The notes under the pieces are model-generated. The model was not told the origin of the DNA. It saw only the letters and a list, made by a program, of their open reading frames with translations, and did not search any database. Of a DNA stretch of 33,122 nucleotides, positions 4,871 to 31,961 are shown piece after piece (position 1 is the stretch's first letter; every line of letters begins with the position of its first letter). The stretch comes from a virus, in the IMG/VR virus record IMGVR_UViG_3300014819_000034, positions 1 through 33,122 of that record; one strand, given 5' to 3'. Made by a program: the position numbers and the translations under genes.

Positions 4871-5179
4871 ATGAAAACTAAAACACAACCCACAGAAGAA
4901 CTTCAATCCCCTCTAGCCTGGTGGGGTAAAACCCAAGAAAAATCTTTAACACTAGCTAAGTGGATGGCTTTTTATGAAGCAGTTAACATCATAGCAGACA
5001 AAGCAGAAGAAAGAAATATACCCTTTGAAGAGGTTAAACTTTGTCCCCTAGATATCAGAGATTATATTAATTCTACACAAGACATCTTTCTTCGCAAACT
5101 TCTAGAAGAAGATTATAAAATTCAAATTTATCACTCCGAAGAAAGTACTACAGATTTTTTAAAGGTTGATATTGTTTAA
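4871..5179 (+). CDS. hypothetical protein
   Basis: A 102-residue acidic, probably helical protein with no motif I recognise. It starts 2 nt after the previous stop. Its TAA at 5177-5179 overlaps the TAA of the convergent neck-like gene (5176-5178), so the two transcription units meet with no spacer and no terminator hairpin. Confidence 0.75.
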   Translation: MKTKTQPTEELQSPLAWWGKTQEKSLTLAKWMAFYEAVNIIADKAEERNIPFEEVKLCPLDIRDYINSTQDIFLRKLLEEDYKIQIYHSEESTTDFLKVDIV

Positions 5180-6096
5180 TAATGACCGTATACAGACGGG
5201 TTGCTATTAGGATTATCTGTAATATAACTAAAATTTTCATTAGCAGCCTGTTCTATTACATCATTATCATCAAGAACATTTGCTCCTTGACCAGCACCCG
5301 GACTATGTGGTTCTTGGCTAAATTGATACCTCTTAGCTGCTAAAAACCAAACATAATGTCCTCCCAAAGCATTTTGTTTGAATTCATCTATGCTTTCTGT
5401 TAACTCATAAACAGTAGTACCTCGCTTTGGAAAGTGAATACGATCAGAACCAAATTCCGTAAGAGCAATTAAATCTCCAGCCTTAGGTTCTTTCGTTTGA
5501 AGATTTAAAGCTGATATGGATATATTAAGTGAATTGACTGCATCAGTACTTAAAGTAAAGAATGCACTAGAACTTAAACCATCAAACGTAATAGAGCTTA
5601 ATGTTAAAGAACTTAAAGAAGGGCTTCCGAGGGCATTAACAGCATCAGTACTCAAAGAGGTTGTACTTAAGAAAGCAAACGCGGTTGCACTTAATTTAGA
5701 AGAACTTAAACAAATAAAGGAAGTAGCAGTCAATGCAGAAAAAGCAGCTGCTTTAACTACATCTGCACTTAAATTGTGGAAAGATAAAGAACTTAAAGCA
5801 TTCTCAAATAAGGTCGGATGAATTACAGCCGTAACATCCCCTTCTGCAATAATACCCATCCTAGATAAAAGTATAGAATCATTAGAAAGAGCCAATGCTA
5901 ATATCATCGGAACTCCAGGAGCAAAACCCGCATCTGGACTTTCTCCATATAAAGGATTGCTAGAAGATAATTGGGTCAGATTGCTATAATAAACTATTTC
6001 TTGACCCCCTATACTGATTTGTTCTTTCCACCAATTAGAGAAATTCTGTCTCTCATTGGCATTGATCTTTTTATTTAAAAATCGTAAAGAGTCCAT
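5176..6096 (-). CDS. neck / head-tail connector-like structural protein with a Ser/Leu-rich insert
   Basis: A 306-residue protein. The beginning (YYSNL...NPLYGESPDAGFAP...NDSILLSRMGIIAEGDVTAVIH) and the end (PKAGDLIALTEFG...YELTESIDEF...GHYVWFLAAKRYQFSQEP) follow the pattern of T4 gp14-like neck proteins: a small virion protein joining head and tail. Between them, about residues 95-200, sits a low-complexity stretch rich in Leu, Ser, Ala and Thr with a rough 5-10 residue rhythm (NLSADVVKAAAFSALT, LSTDAVNALG, LSTDAVNSLN) that is not usual for the family. It starts at the ATG at 6096. The gp14 assignment rests on motif pattern only. Confidence 0.6.
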   Translation of the reverse strand: MDSLRFLNKKINANERQNFSNWWKEQISIGGQEIVYYSNLTQLSSSNPLYGESPDAGFAPGVPMILALALSNDSILLSRMGIIAEGDVTAVIHPTLFENALSSLSFHNLSADVVKAAAFSALTATSFICLSSSKLSATAFAFLSTTSLSTDAVNALGSPSLSSLTLSSITFDGLSSSAFFTLSTDAVNSLNISISALNLQTKEPKAGDLIALTEFGSDRIHFPKRGTTVYELTESIDEFKQNALGGHYVWFLAAKRYQFSQEPHSPGAGQGANVLDDNDVIEQAANENFSYITDNPNSNPSVYGHY

Positions 6097-21823: not shown

Positions 21824-21848
21824 TTTAAATGGTTCAATGGTTTTTGAG

Positions 21849-21856
21849 CATAAATA
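21849..21856 (+). promoter_or_regulatory. late-promoter-like element CATAAATA
   Basis: CATAAATA lies 5 nt upstream of the ATG of the HNH endonuclease gene. Confidence 0.45.
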
Positions 21857-21861
21857 TTTAT

Positions 21862-22638
21862 ATGAAAATTAAAACTTCTAAATATTATTATAAAATATAT
21901 AAAAAATTTATAGAATCTCGGAAAAAAATAATAAGAGATGGTTATATAGAGTCTCATCATATAAAACCACGCTGCTTTGGCGGGGCTGATAAAGCAAATA
22001 ATCTTATAGCTCTAACTCCAAGAGAACATTTTTTTGCTCATTTACTTTTATATAAAGCATTTCCGACTAATAAAAAAATAATTTCAGCTTTAAGTGCCAT
22101 GGCTTATGGAAATAAAAGAAAATTAACCTCCAGGCAATATAATGCAATAAAAGAAGCCACTTCCAAAAAAATACCATCTCATCTAGAACTAATAAATTTA
22201 TATTTTAAACAAAATTTATCATATGCTAAAATAGCTAAAATTTATAATGTGTCAGATATGACAGTATGTAAATGGTTCAAACATTACAACATTACTCCCA
22301 AATCCTTAAACCAACTTAAACTAAAATCACCTAGTAAGAAAATGTTAATTGAAATTTGTTTAAAAAATAAAAATAATATCACTCTTGTAGCAAAGGAATT
22401 TAAAGTGAGTAGATCGACTGTTTATAAATGGTTGAAAGAAAATCAAATACCAATGATTCAAATTATAGGTAAAACAAAACCAATTCCATTAAAAACAGAA
22501 TTGGAAGAGCTTTATTTAAATAAAAATTTAAGTCTAAAAGACTTACATAAACATTATAAAGTGACTAAAAATTTAATAAGAAAATGGTTAAAAAATTTTA
22601 ATATAATCAAGCACAAACATTCTTGGAAAAATTTTTAA
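21862..22638 (+). CDS. HNH homing-type endonuclease with repeated helix-turn-helix modules
   Basis: A 258-residue protein. The N-terminal HNH nuclease is clear: YIESHHIKPRCFGG, then NNLIALTPREHFFAHLLL (about residues 27-65). The C-terminal half holds three helix-turn-helix units spaced about 50 residues apart: LSYAKIAKIYNVSDMTVCKWFKHY, ITLVAKEFKVSRSTVYKWLKEN and LSLKDLHKHYKVTKNLIRKWLKNF, which would bind a long DNA site. This is the layout of free-standing homing endonucleases in T4-like phages. It is markedly AT- and Lys-rich relative to neighbours, is alone on the plus strand between minus-strand genes, and its 3' end overlaps the next gene by 32 nt, consistent with recent insertion. Confidence 0.88.
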   Translation: MKIKTSKYYYKIYKKFIESRKKIIRDGYIESHHIKPRCFGGADKANNLIALTPREHFFAHLLLYKAFPTNKKIISALSAMAYGNKRKLTSRQYNAIKEATSKKIPSHLELINLYFKQNLSYAKIAKIYNVSDMTVCKWFKHYNITPKSLNQLKLKSPSKKMLIEICLKNKNNITLVAKEFKVSRSTVYKWLKENQIPMIQIIGKTKPIPLKTELEELYLNKNLSLKDLHKHYKVTKNLIRKWLKNFNIIKHKHSWKNF

Positions 22639-25467: not shown

Positions 25468-25483
25468 TGGTGGAGGCGAGGGG
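25468..25483 (-). repeat. distal copy of the tmRNA 3' end (direct repeat with encoded CCA)
   Basis: On the minus strand this reads CCCCTCGCCTCCACCA: the 3' strand of the tmRNA T-stem, the 3' acceptor strand, the discriminator A and a full CCA. Fifteen bases are identical to the proximal copy at 26232-26246. It directly abuts the TGA of the endonuclease gene. The simplest reading is that this is the original tmRNA end, displaced when the endonuclease cassette inserted. Confidence 0.85.
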
Positions 25484-26209
25484 TCAATATCTGTTGCCTA
25501 TTTTAATTATAGGTTCTTGTTTCTCATACACTAACTTTTCAATTTGTTGAACATTTTTATAAGCTTCTTCATCAACTCGAATTAATCTATAATTATTGTT
25601 GATACACCATTGTTCAAGTAATCTGTCTTTCAATTGCTTTTTAGCTAACTGTCCGTGTATATCCTTAAAATGCCAGATTCCATCGTACTCAAAGCATACT
25701 TTGAGAACATCAGACCACATATCTCTGCTTAACGTTTCTTCATTGCTTAGTTTTAATCTTCCTCCACTCTTCCATTCATCAGCGGGATATTTTTCTTTAA
25801 ACCATTTAAGTATTGCTCTTTCCGCTTTAGAAGAAAATATTTGTATGGCTGCATGCAATTTGCCTTCTGCCCAATTTCTTTTTGTAGCAGCACTTTGTTT
25901 GCTTTTCCATTCCGGAGTTATATAAGTTCGTTCATAAGGGATTCGGGTATTATTATTAAATTTAGCAGCACAACTATTATTACAAAAAATATTAGTTCTA
26001 GAAAAGAATTCTTTTCTGCACGTTTTGCATGATTTTTTATTAGCGGTACATGTTTTTTTATGTTTATCAAAGCCACATTGAGCAATTTCTTTAAAACATG
26101 TAGGGCAGTTTTGTTTTTTGTATTTAATCTCTTTGTGGGCCCATCTTATGTGATTAGAATAAGATCTTCCTGATTCAAAAGTAATATTACATATTTCACA
26201 CTGTTTCAT
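25484..26209 (-). CDS. zinc-finger, Vsr/EDxHD-like homing endonuclease
   Basis: A 241-residue protein. The N-terminus has a C2H2 finger (C4, C7, H20, H25), a second Cys/His unit (C35, C38, H50, C54) and a third Cys cluster (C61, C64, C76, C80), for DNA contact. The C-terminal nuclease (about 125-225) has E130, D167 in MWSDVLK, FEYDGIWHF with D176 and H180, and D195, then the basic IRVDEE strand. This order matches Vsr-like EDxHD homing endonucleases such as I-Bth0305I. The gene lies between two direct copies of the tmRNA 3' end, with its own GATAAGTA element 7 nt upstream. It could have carried itself into the tmRNA gene, or move the tmRNA intron in trans. Confidence 0.82.
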   Translation of the reverse strand: MKQCEICNITFESGRSYSNHIRWAHKEIKYKKQNCPTCFKEIAQCGFDKHKKTCTANKKSCKTCRKEFFSRTNIFCNNSCAAKFNNNTRIPYERTYITPEWKSKQSAATKRNWAEGKLHAAIQIFSSKAERAILKWFKEKYPADEWKSGGRLKLSNEETLSRDMWSDVLKVCFEYDGIWHFKDIHGQLAKKQLKDRLLEQWCINNNYRLIRVDEEAYKNVQQIEKLVYEKQEPIIKIGNRY

Positions 26210-26231: not shown

Positions 26232-26246
26232 GGTGGAGGCGAGGGG
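26232..26246 (-). repeat. proximal copy of the tmRNA 3' end (direct repeat)
   Basis: On the minus strand this is CCCCTCGCCTCCACC, followed by T rather than A, so CCA is incomplete. It forms the functional 3' strand of the T-stem and acceptor stem. It is identical over 15 bp to 25469-25483, and the two copies bracket the endonuclease gene and its promoter. Confidence 0.85.
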
Positions 26247-26253
26247 ACTTGAA

Positions 26254-26458
26254 CCCATAATTTTCATTATGGTAAGGACTATATCTTCATCCTATAAGGA
26301 TGTTGGATGCTCTAGCCTGTACTCAGGTAGTCTCTGCACCTTCCTTATTTTTAAGGCTCGGCTCAGTATTGCCATGCTCCATTTCTGGAATTTAGGTTTC
26401 ACTGAATTCTTCCAATTTTCTCATTTCTTGTTACCAAGAAAGGCAACCTTTGATTGCA
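26254..26458 (-). mobile_element. group I intron in the T-loop of the tmRNA
   Basis: About 205 nt with the conserved core of bacterial tRNA-type (IC3-like) introns: P/P4 region GAATTCAGTGAAACCTAAAT, Q region GGCAATACTGAGCCGAGCC, P6a hairpin CCTTA/TAAGG, R region GGTGCAGAGACTA, and S region TATAGTCC closing P7 (GACTA/TAGTC). P1 forms between the exon AGGGGT and the guide GCCTTT, with a U-G pair at the splice site. P2 is a GTAA-capped stem, and the last hairpin CCATAAT-GAAA-ATTATGG precedes the terminal G. The exact junction is ambiguous by a base because GGGT occurs at both ends. The intron encodes no protein. Similar core sequences are known from cyanobacterial tRNA-Leu introns. Confidence 0.9.
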
Positions 26459-26879
26459 CCCCTGTCCTGAAAACTTAGACTTTAGCGTCTACAATCATAT
26501 TTTGTTAGCTCTTAAAGACCATAGGCTGCTAACTAGTTAAGGTCTACCTGTTGGACTGTAAGGGGCCCAACTCCTCTCGATTGTTTTTCCAGAGGTTCAC
26601 GATATTGCTCAAACCTATTGTGGTACTCCAGAAATTTTAATAGGATCCATTTCTGTTTGTTAGGCTGCGAGATCGTACATCTCTTCTTCTGCGAGGTAGT
26701 CCTCGAAGTTGTTGATGATGTGTGTTGCTTCAGCTAAGAGTGCTTCTGTATTATCAGTTGCATTTATTTGTTTTGTCCAGAGATTTTAACGAGGCCAACC
26801 AGACTTCCTCGGATTGCAACTAAAGTTTTCAGCGCTCAGTCGAAACTAATGCGCCCCCAAATGTAAAAGAACTATTCAC

Positions 26880-30020: not shown

Positions 30021-31961
30021 TTAACCAAATATTAAAAACTTATAATCGCCAGGAGCTTCATTATTAAAAGTAAAGTCTAAACGATTTGAAGTAATAACTG
30101 TGGCTGCTACCAAGATAACATCTCCAGTGCTGACATTATAAACTACTGGTACAACATCTGTATTGAGATTATGATAAACACTTACAATTTCTGTAGCAGC
30201 ACCGGTGAGGGTGTTGGTCTCTACATATTTTACCAAACCAACAGGTCCTTGATTGCCTTGATCACCCTGGGCGCCTTGGAATCCTTGATTGCCTTGGTCC
30301 CCTTGGAAACCTTGATTGCCTTGGAAACCTTGATTGCCTTGATCTCCCTGATTACCCTGGAAACCTTGATTGCCTTGATCGCCTTGGAATCCTTGATTGC
30401 CTTGATCGCCTTGGAATCCTTGATTGCCTTGGTCCCCTTGGAAACCTTGATTGCCTTGATCACCCTGATCTCCTTGATCACCCTGATCTCCTTGGAATCC
30501 TTGGTTGCCTTGATCCCCCTGAGCGCCTTGGAATCCTTGATCACCTTGATTGCCTTGGAATCCCTGATTACCTTGATCTCCCTGATCACCTTGGAATCCT
30601 TGATTGCCTTGATCCCCTTGGAATCCTTGATTGCCTTGATCACCCTGATTGCCTTGATCTCCTTGGAAACCTTGATTGCCTTGGTCTCCTTGGAAACCTT
30701 GATTGCCTTGGTCTCCCTGGTCTCCCTGGAAACCTTGATTTCCCTGGTCGCCTTGGAATCCTTGATTTCCCTGGTCGCCTTGGAATCCTTGATTTCCCTG
30801 GTCGCCTTGGAATCCCTGATTACCTTGGTCGCCTTGGTCGCCTTGATTGCCTTGGAATCCTTGATCGCCTTGATTTCCCTGAAACCCCTGATTACCTTGA
30901 AATCCTTGATCGCCTTGATCGCCTTGGAAACCTTGATCGCCTTGGAAACCTTGATCACCTTGGAAACCTTGATCACCCTGAAAACCTTGATTGCCTTGAT
31001 CCCCTTGGAAGCCCTGGTTACCTTGATCCCCTTGGAAGCCCTGGTTACCTTGATCGCCTTGATCCCCTTGGAAACCTTGATTGCCTTGGTCTCCCTGGAA
31101 TCCTTGGTTACCTTGATCCCCTTGGAAGCCCTGATTACCTTGATCACCCTGATCACCTTGGAATCCTTGATTGCCTTGATCTCCTTGGTTACCTTGATCT
31201 CCTTGGAAACCTTGATTGCCTTGGTCACCTTGATCTCCTTGGAATCCCTGATCTCCTTGGTCTCCTTGGAATCCTTGATTGCCTTGGTCTCCTTGATTGC
31301 CTTGATTGCCTTGGAAACCTTGATCTCCCATTGCAACTAAAAGACTCCATCTTACATTGTCTCCAGCCGGAACGTGGTTAGTGTTTGCTACTTCACATAC
31401 ATAACTAGAACCTTGATATTCTGCTATAAATCCAGCTAAGTAATGTGTGGCACTATTCCAAGGTCCTTTGAATATTAAGGCCATGGAAGGACTAATATCT
31501 CCATGAATATGTCCAGAAGCAGATATGGCTCCTACCACCGTTAATTTTTCATTTGGAAGTTCTGTTCCGATACCCACATAACCGGGTCTACTGGTGTGTC
31601 CGTCTACGAATAAACTAACCAACCCATTATCATCATAAAATGCTGCAATAGGAGCATCTCCAGTTTGAGTTACTAATAAAGCTGGACCCGTTCCTAGGTT
31701 AGTAATTGACAAAGCACTTGTCTCTGTAACATTGGTTTGAAAAGAGGTAAAGTCTCCTAACGCAGATAAACTACCAGTAATAAGAACATTACCAACTACA
31801 TGAAGTTTTTCTGTTGGAGTGTTGATACCAATACCAACGTTCCCAGAGGCATAGATGTCAACTGAGCTTACACCCTGTGAGGCAGTGATATTAGTTGAGC
31901 TAACATCCTGTAGATTAAGATTTCCAGTATTTTGTAAATTAGATACGATTTGCAGAGCCAT
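30021..31961 (-). CDS. collagen-like phage fibre protein
   Basis: A 646-residue virion fibre candidate. Residues 1-211 form an N-terminal region with two copies of the phage-fibre motif VGIGT/INTPTEKLHVVG (GNVGIGINTPTEKLHV; GYVGIGTELPNEKLTV) and a small carbohydrate-binding-like segment (FKGPWNSATHYLAGFIAEYQGSSYVC). Residues 212-571 are 120 uninterrupted Gly-X-Gln triplets (X = Asp, Asn, Phe, rarely Ala). The last 75 residues are a compact C-terminal domain (YHNLNTDVVPVVYN...GDYKFLIFG) that could trimerise the stalk. A CATAAGTA element lies 7 nt before the ATG and a terminator follows the stop. Confidence 0.9.
   Translation of the reverse strand: MALQIVSNLQNTGNLNLQDVSSTNITASQGVSSVDIYASGNVGIGINTPTEKLHVVGNVLITGSLSALGDFTSFQTNVTETSALSITNLGTGPALLVTQTGDAPIAAFYDDNGLVSLFVDGHTSRPGYVGIGTELPNEKLTVVGAISASGHIHGDISPSMALIFKGPWNSATHYLAGFIAEYQGSSYVCEVANTNHVPAGDNVRWSLLVAMGDQGFQGNQGNQGDQGNQGFQGDQGDQGFQGDQGDQGNQGFQGDQGNQGDQGNQGFQGDQGDQGNQGFQGDQGNQGFQGDQGNQGFQGDQGDQGNQGFQGDQGNQGFQGDQGNQGFQGDQGFQGDQGFQGDQGFQGDQGDQGFQGNQGFQGNQGDQGFQGNQGDQGDQGNQGFQGDQGNQGFQGDQGNQGFQGDQGNQGFQGDQGDQGNQGFQGDQGNQGFQGDQGNQGDQGNQGFQGDQGNQGFQGDQGDQGNQGFQGNQGDQGFQGAQGDQGNQGFQGDQGDQGDQGDQGNQGFQGDQGNQGFQGDQGNQGFQGDQGNQGFQGNQGDQGNQGFQGNQGFQGDQGNQGFQGAQGDQGNQGPVGLVKYVETNTLTGAATEIVSVYHNLNTDVVPVVYNVSTGDVILVAATVITSNRLDFTFNNEAPGDYKFLIFG
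30246..31328 (-). repeat. 9-bp-periodic repeat encoding 120 Gly-X-Gln triplets
   Basis: The region is built from variants of GGNRAYCAAGG-type 9-nt units (GGTGATCAA, GGCAATCAA, GGATTCCAA). Because the period is a multiple of three, all frames on both strands stay open over long stretches. Such DNA is prone to length change by recombination or slippage. Confidence 0.9.

Follow-up and report, generated by a model that had tools for sequence, protein, structure and literature searches.

What keeps a transfer-messenger RNA (tmRNA) gene whole when its T-loop is interrupted and its 3′ end is found a second time further downstream? The question is raised by a 33-kb virus record of IMG/VR (IMGVR_UViG_3300014819_000034, positions 1 to 33,122, called the window here), which comes from a contractile-tailed phage with tail sheath and ribonucleotide reductase genes. 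The phage tmRNA gene at this locus probably hosts a composite mobile element whose homing target is tmRNA genes. This reading is carried by the anatomy of the locus, by relatives with an empty site, by a displaced gene end, by the exchange of a block between relatives and by the association of an endonuclease family with tmRNA genes. The adjoining gene for a putative homing endonuclease and the displaced 3′ end, neither of which was mentioned in a first-pass annotation of this DNA, probably explain how the arrangement arose. The features are listed in the order of transcription, with relatives designated by L numbers.

26453 to 26858, minus strand: tmRNA 5′ exon, matched by RF00023 and 86-89% identical to the intronless tmRNAs L096, L097 and L103; it contains the acceptor 5′ strand, D-region, helix 2, pseudoknots, tag frame, T-stem 5′ strand and T-loop nucleotides 1-6
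26660 to 26761, minus strand: tag reading frame ATDNTEALLAEATHIINNFEDYLAEEEMYDLAA-stop, 33 amino acids, kept in L096, L097, L098 and L103
26463 to 26459, minus strand: T-stem 5′ strand AGGGG, followed by T-loop nucleotides 1-6, TGCAAT
26248 to 26452, minus strand: group I intron of 205 nt without an open reading frame (ORF), at T-loop position 7, omega-G at 26248
26443 to 26447, minus strand: internal guide sequence GUUGC, pairing with exon GCAAU to form P1, with U-G at the splice site
26232 to 26247, minus strand: tmRNA 3′ exon, consisting of T60, T-stem 3′ strand CCCCT, acceptor 3′ strand CGCCTCC and ACC
25484 to 26209, minus strand: free-standing putative homing endonuclease gene, 241 amino acids, about 22 bp downstream of the tmRNA
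25468 to 25483, minus strand: displaced native tmRNA 3′ end CCCCTCGCCTCCACCA, immediately after the endonuclease stop codon

Comparison with Rfam models using Infernal (cmscan), the check proposed in the first-pass annotation, placed both RNA families above their gathering scores. The tmRNA model (RF00023) matched over its full length (1-374) at 26858-26231 on the minus strand (74 bits against a gathering score of 47, E 3.5e-27), and the group I intron model (Intron_gpI, RF00028) matched in full at 26467-26255 on the same strand (91 bits against 50, E 2.5e-22). Both the complete one-piece minus-strand tmRNA and the 205-nt group I intron in its T-loop, as first annotated, were thus upheld, the intron also by a P3-P9 core with P7 and by covariation. 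ARAGORN run on the window did not detect the tmRNA gene, probably due to the split T-arm.

The origin of the second 3′ end is indicated by relatives that have neither intron nor endonuclease. In L097 the tmRNA ends AGGGG-TTCAACT-CCCCT-CGCCTCC-ACCA-TTTTATTTTAATTG, and in the window CCCCTCGCCTCCACCA followed by TTTTATTTTAATTGGAG lies behind the endonuclease gene, running into the native downstream flank TTTTATTTTAATTG; this displaced end is identical to the tmRNA 3′ end and flank of L097. L096, L097, L098 and L103 all represent the empty site, lacking the endonuclease. Because it matches the L097 tmRNA end and flank, the copy behind the endonuclease is, by this comparison, the native 3′ end, displaced, and the working 3′ end arrived with the insert.

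In a second occupied relative, L059, both the final 224 nt of the tmRNA body and the genes further on are 97% identical to the window. Between these flanks, over a stretch that runs from T-stem to endonuclease gene, L059 has a different insert and an endonuclease only 60% identical. The working T-stem of L059 is AGCGG/CCGCT, changed on both sides, and its displaced copy keeps the ancestral CCCCT. As read from this alignment, the block is exchanged in one piece, and its left edge falls within the T-stem. The L059 insert gave no match in a first Rfam scan and then a match of 18.9 bits (E 0.0098) over a short stretch, below gathering; since its 3′ half resembles the intron in a phage tRNA-Arg gene, it is a probable group I intron, and L059 probably a further T-loop intron-form tmRNA.

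The endonuclease has an N-terminal C2H2-like zinc finger and a C-terminal Vsr-like nuclease domain, probably of the EDxHD type. In an AlphaFold2 model the C-terminal domain has pLDDT mostly above 90, and residues ~110-240 match Vsr (1cw0, Z 10.8; 1vsr, Z 10.2) and I-Bth0305I (3r3p, Z 8.3); the modelled fold is accordingly Vsr/I-Bth0305I-like. E130, D163, H180 and D195 are invariant in 21 family sequences and are candidate active-site residues. Searching by sequence against solved structures returned no endonuclease match beyond zinc fingers, Pfam returned only weak zinc-finger matches below cut-off, and NCBIfam holds no model for the protein. With dN 0.30 and dS 1.64 relative to L059, the gene is, on these rates, under purifying selection.

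Relatives of the endonuclease were sought with the protein alone, not conditioned on tmRNA, which gave 5 and then 28 viral loci, two genome-bin loci and one 735-kb phage from the phage collection. Besides the window, all non-duplicate loci (21 of 21) lie at a tmRNA gene, either within ~200 bp of it or inside a permuted gene, and in each record the full-length endonuclease copy is the one at the tmRNA locus. The tmRNA was called by Rfam at 16 of the 21 loci (E 6e-5 or better); at L059, L060, L062, L085 and L090 Rfam was weak or silent, and the tmRNA was settled from termini and tags. A control family for adjacency to tmRNA genes was sought with the HNH endonuclease of the window, for which no loci were returned; the control was instead random placement within the same records, which on the 14 records of at least 29 kb (L090 and L091 both counted) predicts ~0.35 cases. 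L094, a 1005-amino-acid protein with only the stretch EYDGIWH in common, was left out of the family.

The position of the endonuclease varies. It is downstream of a standard tmRNA in the window, L059, L062, L080, L081, L086, L089, L092 and L093, upstream in L069 and L072, upstream of a permuted tmRNA gene in L063, L065, L067 and L068, within the intervening segment of a permuted gene in L060, on the strand opposite the tmRNA in L061, L074 and L085, and downstream of a different kind of intron-bearing tmRNA in L090/L091 and L104 (the 735-kb phage). At L072 (3727-4454), where the endonuclease is 5′ of the tmRNA, the tmRNA 5′ end and upstream sequence are duplicated on both sides of the endonuclease. 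L092 and L093 are genome-bin contigs, from a Lokiarchaeota and a Patescibacteria metagenome-assembled genome, that carry a tmRNA with a family endonuclease; a second, higher-scoring tmRNA is found elsewhere in the Patescibacteria bin, and L092 and L093 are therefore probably phage contigs binned with hosts.

The alternative that survives best, though we regard it as doubtful, is that intron and endonuclease are independent passengers, the intron having arrived by a route of its own such as reverse splicing and the endonuclease being merely a neighbour of the tmRNA. Introns without the endonuclease (L008, L016, L055) and endonucleases without an intron (such as L081 and L086) are indeed both common. 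Weighing on the other side, no fewer than three introns unlike one another co-occur with the endonuclease (those of the window, of L059, and of L090/L091 and L104), and one exchanged block contains both intron and endonuclease in the window and L059.

Relatives of the intron were collected by scanning viral contigs with a pattern that joins the intron P7 strand to the tmRNA acceptor end. Seven further contigs with intron-form tmRNAs were recovered (L008, L015, L016, L040, L048, L052 and L055; L015 is cut, and L040 is near-identical to L016), with the core as in the window and a 3′ end of the form AAGTG|TCCCCT; together with L090, L091 and L104, T-loop intron-form tmRNAs are thus present on ten other viral contigs. 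Over six aligned viral introns (window and five homologues) 98.5% of cells are paired and 22 pairs are changed on both sides, compared with 30-37% pairing in slid controls. P1 is 100% paired in the six sequences, two of its pairs covarying (UA to GC and GC to AU), with U55-A in most and G55-C in the window and L052. Covariation is also seen in P9.0, CAC/GUG against CUU/AAG, the window having CUU/AAG. In the register AGGGGTGCAAT|...TTCAAG|TCCCCT, the U at -1 pairs with G in P1 (GCAAU/GUUGC), the intron ends in omega-G and P9.0 is formed. Because of this covariation of P1 and P9.0 in related viral introns, the intron was placed at 26452-26248, after loop nucleotide 6, which would probably give a mature loop UGCAAUU. 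That the T-arm closes only once the segment is removed agrees with the first-pass annotation, whose exact junction was probably off by 6 nt and whose mature loop, UUCAAGU, gives way to UGCAAUU. Its junction AGGGG|...|TTCAAGT was rejected since it puts a G at -1 and is misfitted by the homologous introns; the rebuilt AGGGG-TTCAAGT-CCCCT owes its perfect look only to the chance that the intron 3′ end reads TTCAAG.

Among these relatives, L090 (3631-3900) and L104 (2140-2400) have a P1, GGGUUU/GGACC, that sets the splice after loop nucleotide 3; the loop that remains has 6 nt, and the site may be a fifth subsite for tmRNA introns. In L048 (~5170-5750) a second insertion, an HNH/endonuclease VII-like gene of ~180 amino acids, interrupts the tmRNA around pseudoknot 1, with a 17-bp stem (GTGCTGGTATTCCCTTT...AAAGGGAGTATCAGCAC) on its flanks, like an rRNA intervening sequence.

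It is improbable that the intron is instead a longer one enclosing the endonuclease gene, with the 5′ exon spliced to the 3′ end that starts at 25483, the distal one, and with the proximal copy serving as an internal decoy or an alternative site. The distal copy does have the full CCA, and the G of the stop codon precedes it, which would give a loop UGCAAUA; some tmRNA introns carry endonuclease genes after P9 (PMC11915505). Against this, the P9.0 pairing that covaries in relatives (CUU/AAG) forms at the proximal site only, homologous introns without the endonuclease end at the proximal position, and in L059 the T-stem strand AGCGG is matched by the proximal CCGCT only, the distal CCCCT mismatching.

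The integrity of the RNA itself bears on whether the gene is a decaying pseudogene ruined by insertions, for which we see very little room. The T-loop G55 and the incomplete CCA would fit decay. However, the tag has a single amino-acid change relative to L096 and L097 (32 of 33 residues identical, the frame ending DLAA-stop), and acceptor, helix 2 and T-stem are intact: the GGGGGCG start, an acceptor GGGGGCG/CGCCTCC with G3-U70 (alanine identity), a tag frame and a T-stem AGGGG/CCCCT, all present as first annotated, are accompanied by a D-region TTTCGAC. Helices show compensatory changes across relatives, with the tag nearly unchanged in the near ones, and the endonuclease is under purifying selection as described above; judged by these substitutions, the tmRNA is under constraint. 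That the repeated 3′ end is an att-like integration scar of a site-specific recombinase is hardly credible, since, for all that genomic islands often integrate at tmRNA genes (PMC11915505), the one gene between the copies encodes a Vsr-like nuclease and not a tyrosine or serine integrase.

For the proposed composite element, the following mechanism is envisaged from sequence. The precursor would splice itself in the manner usual for group I introns. Splicing would ligate UGCAAU to U60 and close the T-arm, and both charging with alanine and trans-translation would hinge on it. Host SmpB would be used, because none was found when SmpB was sought in the 227-kb relative L096; the records behind L090 and L091 are similar 345-kb phages, with SmpB in one only (344,634 bp, E 7.6e-51). 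The endonuclease would cut tmRNA genes that lack it, within the T-arm or close by, and repair of the break would copy the donor T-arm, intron, 3′ end and endonuclease gene. The rescue RNA would stay whole, the old 3′ end being pushed downstream, and, in the way of collaborative homing, the intron would split the target and so protect the donor gene. Where a genome has the endonuclease and no intron, altered T-loops may protect likewise.

Several observations count against this account. Intron-form tmRNAs without the family endonuclease exist in L008, L016 and L055, and the intron therefore does not need the endonuclease. The CCA of the proximal 3′ end is not complete (ACCT), and the mature loop would have the unusual G55 in place of U55, a change shared by L052. 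The fold match has modest E-values in Foldseek, 1.7e-3 at best, and the endonuclease downstream in L048 has the zinc finger in common with a different nuclease domain.

A broader proposal, which we favour somewhat, is that the zinc-finger/Vsr-like family is dedicated to phage tmRNA genes, swapping gene ends and gaining immunity through an intron or a recoded T-loop. The family would home into standard, permuted and intron-bearing forms, usually with the 3′ end swapped and in L072 the 5′ end. In the absence of an intron the T-loop, as a rule invariant, is often altered (L060 GGCAGAG, L062 GGCAGTA, L065 GGCGGAA, L085 AGCGAAA and L089 CTCGAAA, and likewise L061, L071 and L080); about ten cases have a normal loop. 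In the tmRNAs with an altered T-loop (the nearly invariant UUC start changed), acceptor, T-stem and tag appear intact.

Bacterial tmRNA introns are far from the few that the first-pass annotation mentioned: Nawrocki, Petrov and Williams (2025, PMC11915505), whose database has 79 phage entries, count 883 unique T-loop sequences at four subsites in 21 phyla, 4% of them with endonuclease genes within, and self-splicing has been reported for the Clostridium botulinum tmRNA intron (PMC2729099). The window intron resembles the bacterial position 7 introns of PMC11915505 in host gene, loop subsite, -1U/omega-G, short length and lack of an ORF, and differs in its viral gene, in a free-standing non-LAGLIDADG endonuclease outside the intron and in the displaced 3′ end. 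No phage tmRNA with a T-loop intron was found in searchable text, and a 2014 review knew phage introns in protein genes only (PMC3984707). Introns in phage tRNA genes are present in the phage collection; an unannotated group I-like intron occurs in a tRNA gene of Klebsiella phage Muenster (L002, 2925-3236), and another in a Microcoleus phage (L105, 214-499) is annotated as a 286-nt tRNA-Arg.

Three further known systems are close to the arrangement. F-CphI adjoins the intron-bearing psbA of cyanophage S-PM2 in collaborative homing (PMC6083498); here too a free-standing endonuclease adjoins an ORF-less intron at one site, and the intron would shield the donor gene. The window differs in that a gene for a structural RNA would be targeted, by a Vsr-like nuclease in place of an EndoVII-like one, and in that a replacement gene end is supplied. 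In fungal mitochondrial mobile ORFs (Allomyces/Glomus atp6) a foreign 3′ end completes the host gene and the native end lies downstream (PMC3630166); the window endonuclease gene likewise comes with a replacement 3′ end and leaves the native end stranded, but in an RNA gene rather than a protein gene, with a probable EDxHD-type enzyme rather than LAGLIDADG or GIY-YIG, and with an intron at the join. I-Bth0305I, the founder of the EDxHD homing endonucleases, is classed as intron-encoded (PMC3943268); the window family has the same predicted nuclease fold, and its conserved E/D/H/D residues may correspond to those of I-Bth0305I. In contrast to that enzyme, the family members are free-standing, carry a zinc finger at the N terminus and keep to tmRNA genes. 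Neither a family of free-standing endonucleases dedicated to tmRNA nor the replacement of tmRNA 3′ ends by such a family was found described in the open-access literature, an absence that is weak evidence.

The first-pass annotation had called the phage T4-like; only its tail sheath is similar to T4-like and Flavobacterium phages, weakly and distantly, and a DNA search found no near relative in the phage collection. A search of plasmid DNA gave no matches, and more distant phage searches matched the intron core only, with no tmRNA body. With the 519-amino-acid neighbouring gene as query no relatives were found on viral contigs, while the 172-amino-acid neighbour recovered some. Elsewhere in the window, the control gene (21829-22638, plus strand) resembles HNH/HTH homing endonuclease genes and is flanked by two conserved genes, with a diverged homologue at the equivalent place in L059, and a 646-amino-acid collagen-like protein with GNQGFQGDQ repeats is encoded at 30021-31961 on the minus strand.

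If the element behaves as proposed, a conserved RNA gene can be invaded repeatedly with its function kept, as the invader brings a spare gene end. Collaborative homing and gene-end replacement would then extend to structural RNA in phages; for testing, the target is defined and the empty site occurs in nature, and a possible reason would be given for the build-up of group I introns in the tmRNA T-loop. Annotation tools miss tmRNAs split in this way. Should the family prove to be dedicated to tmRNA genes, tmRNA would be a battleground between co-infecting phages.
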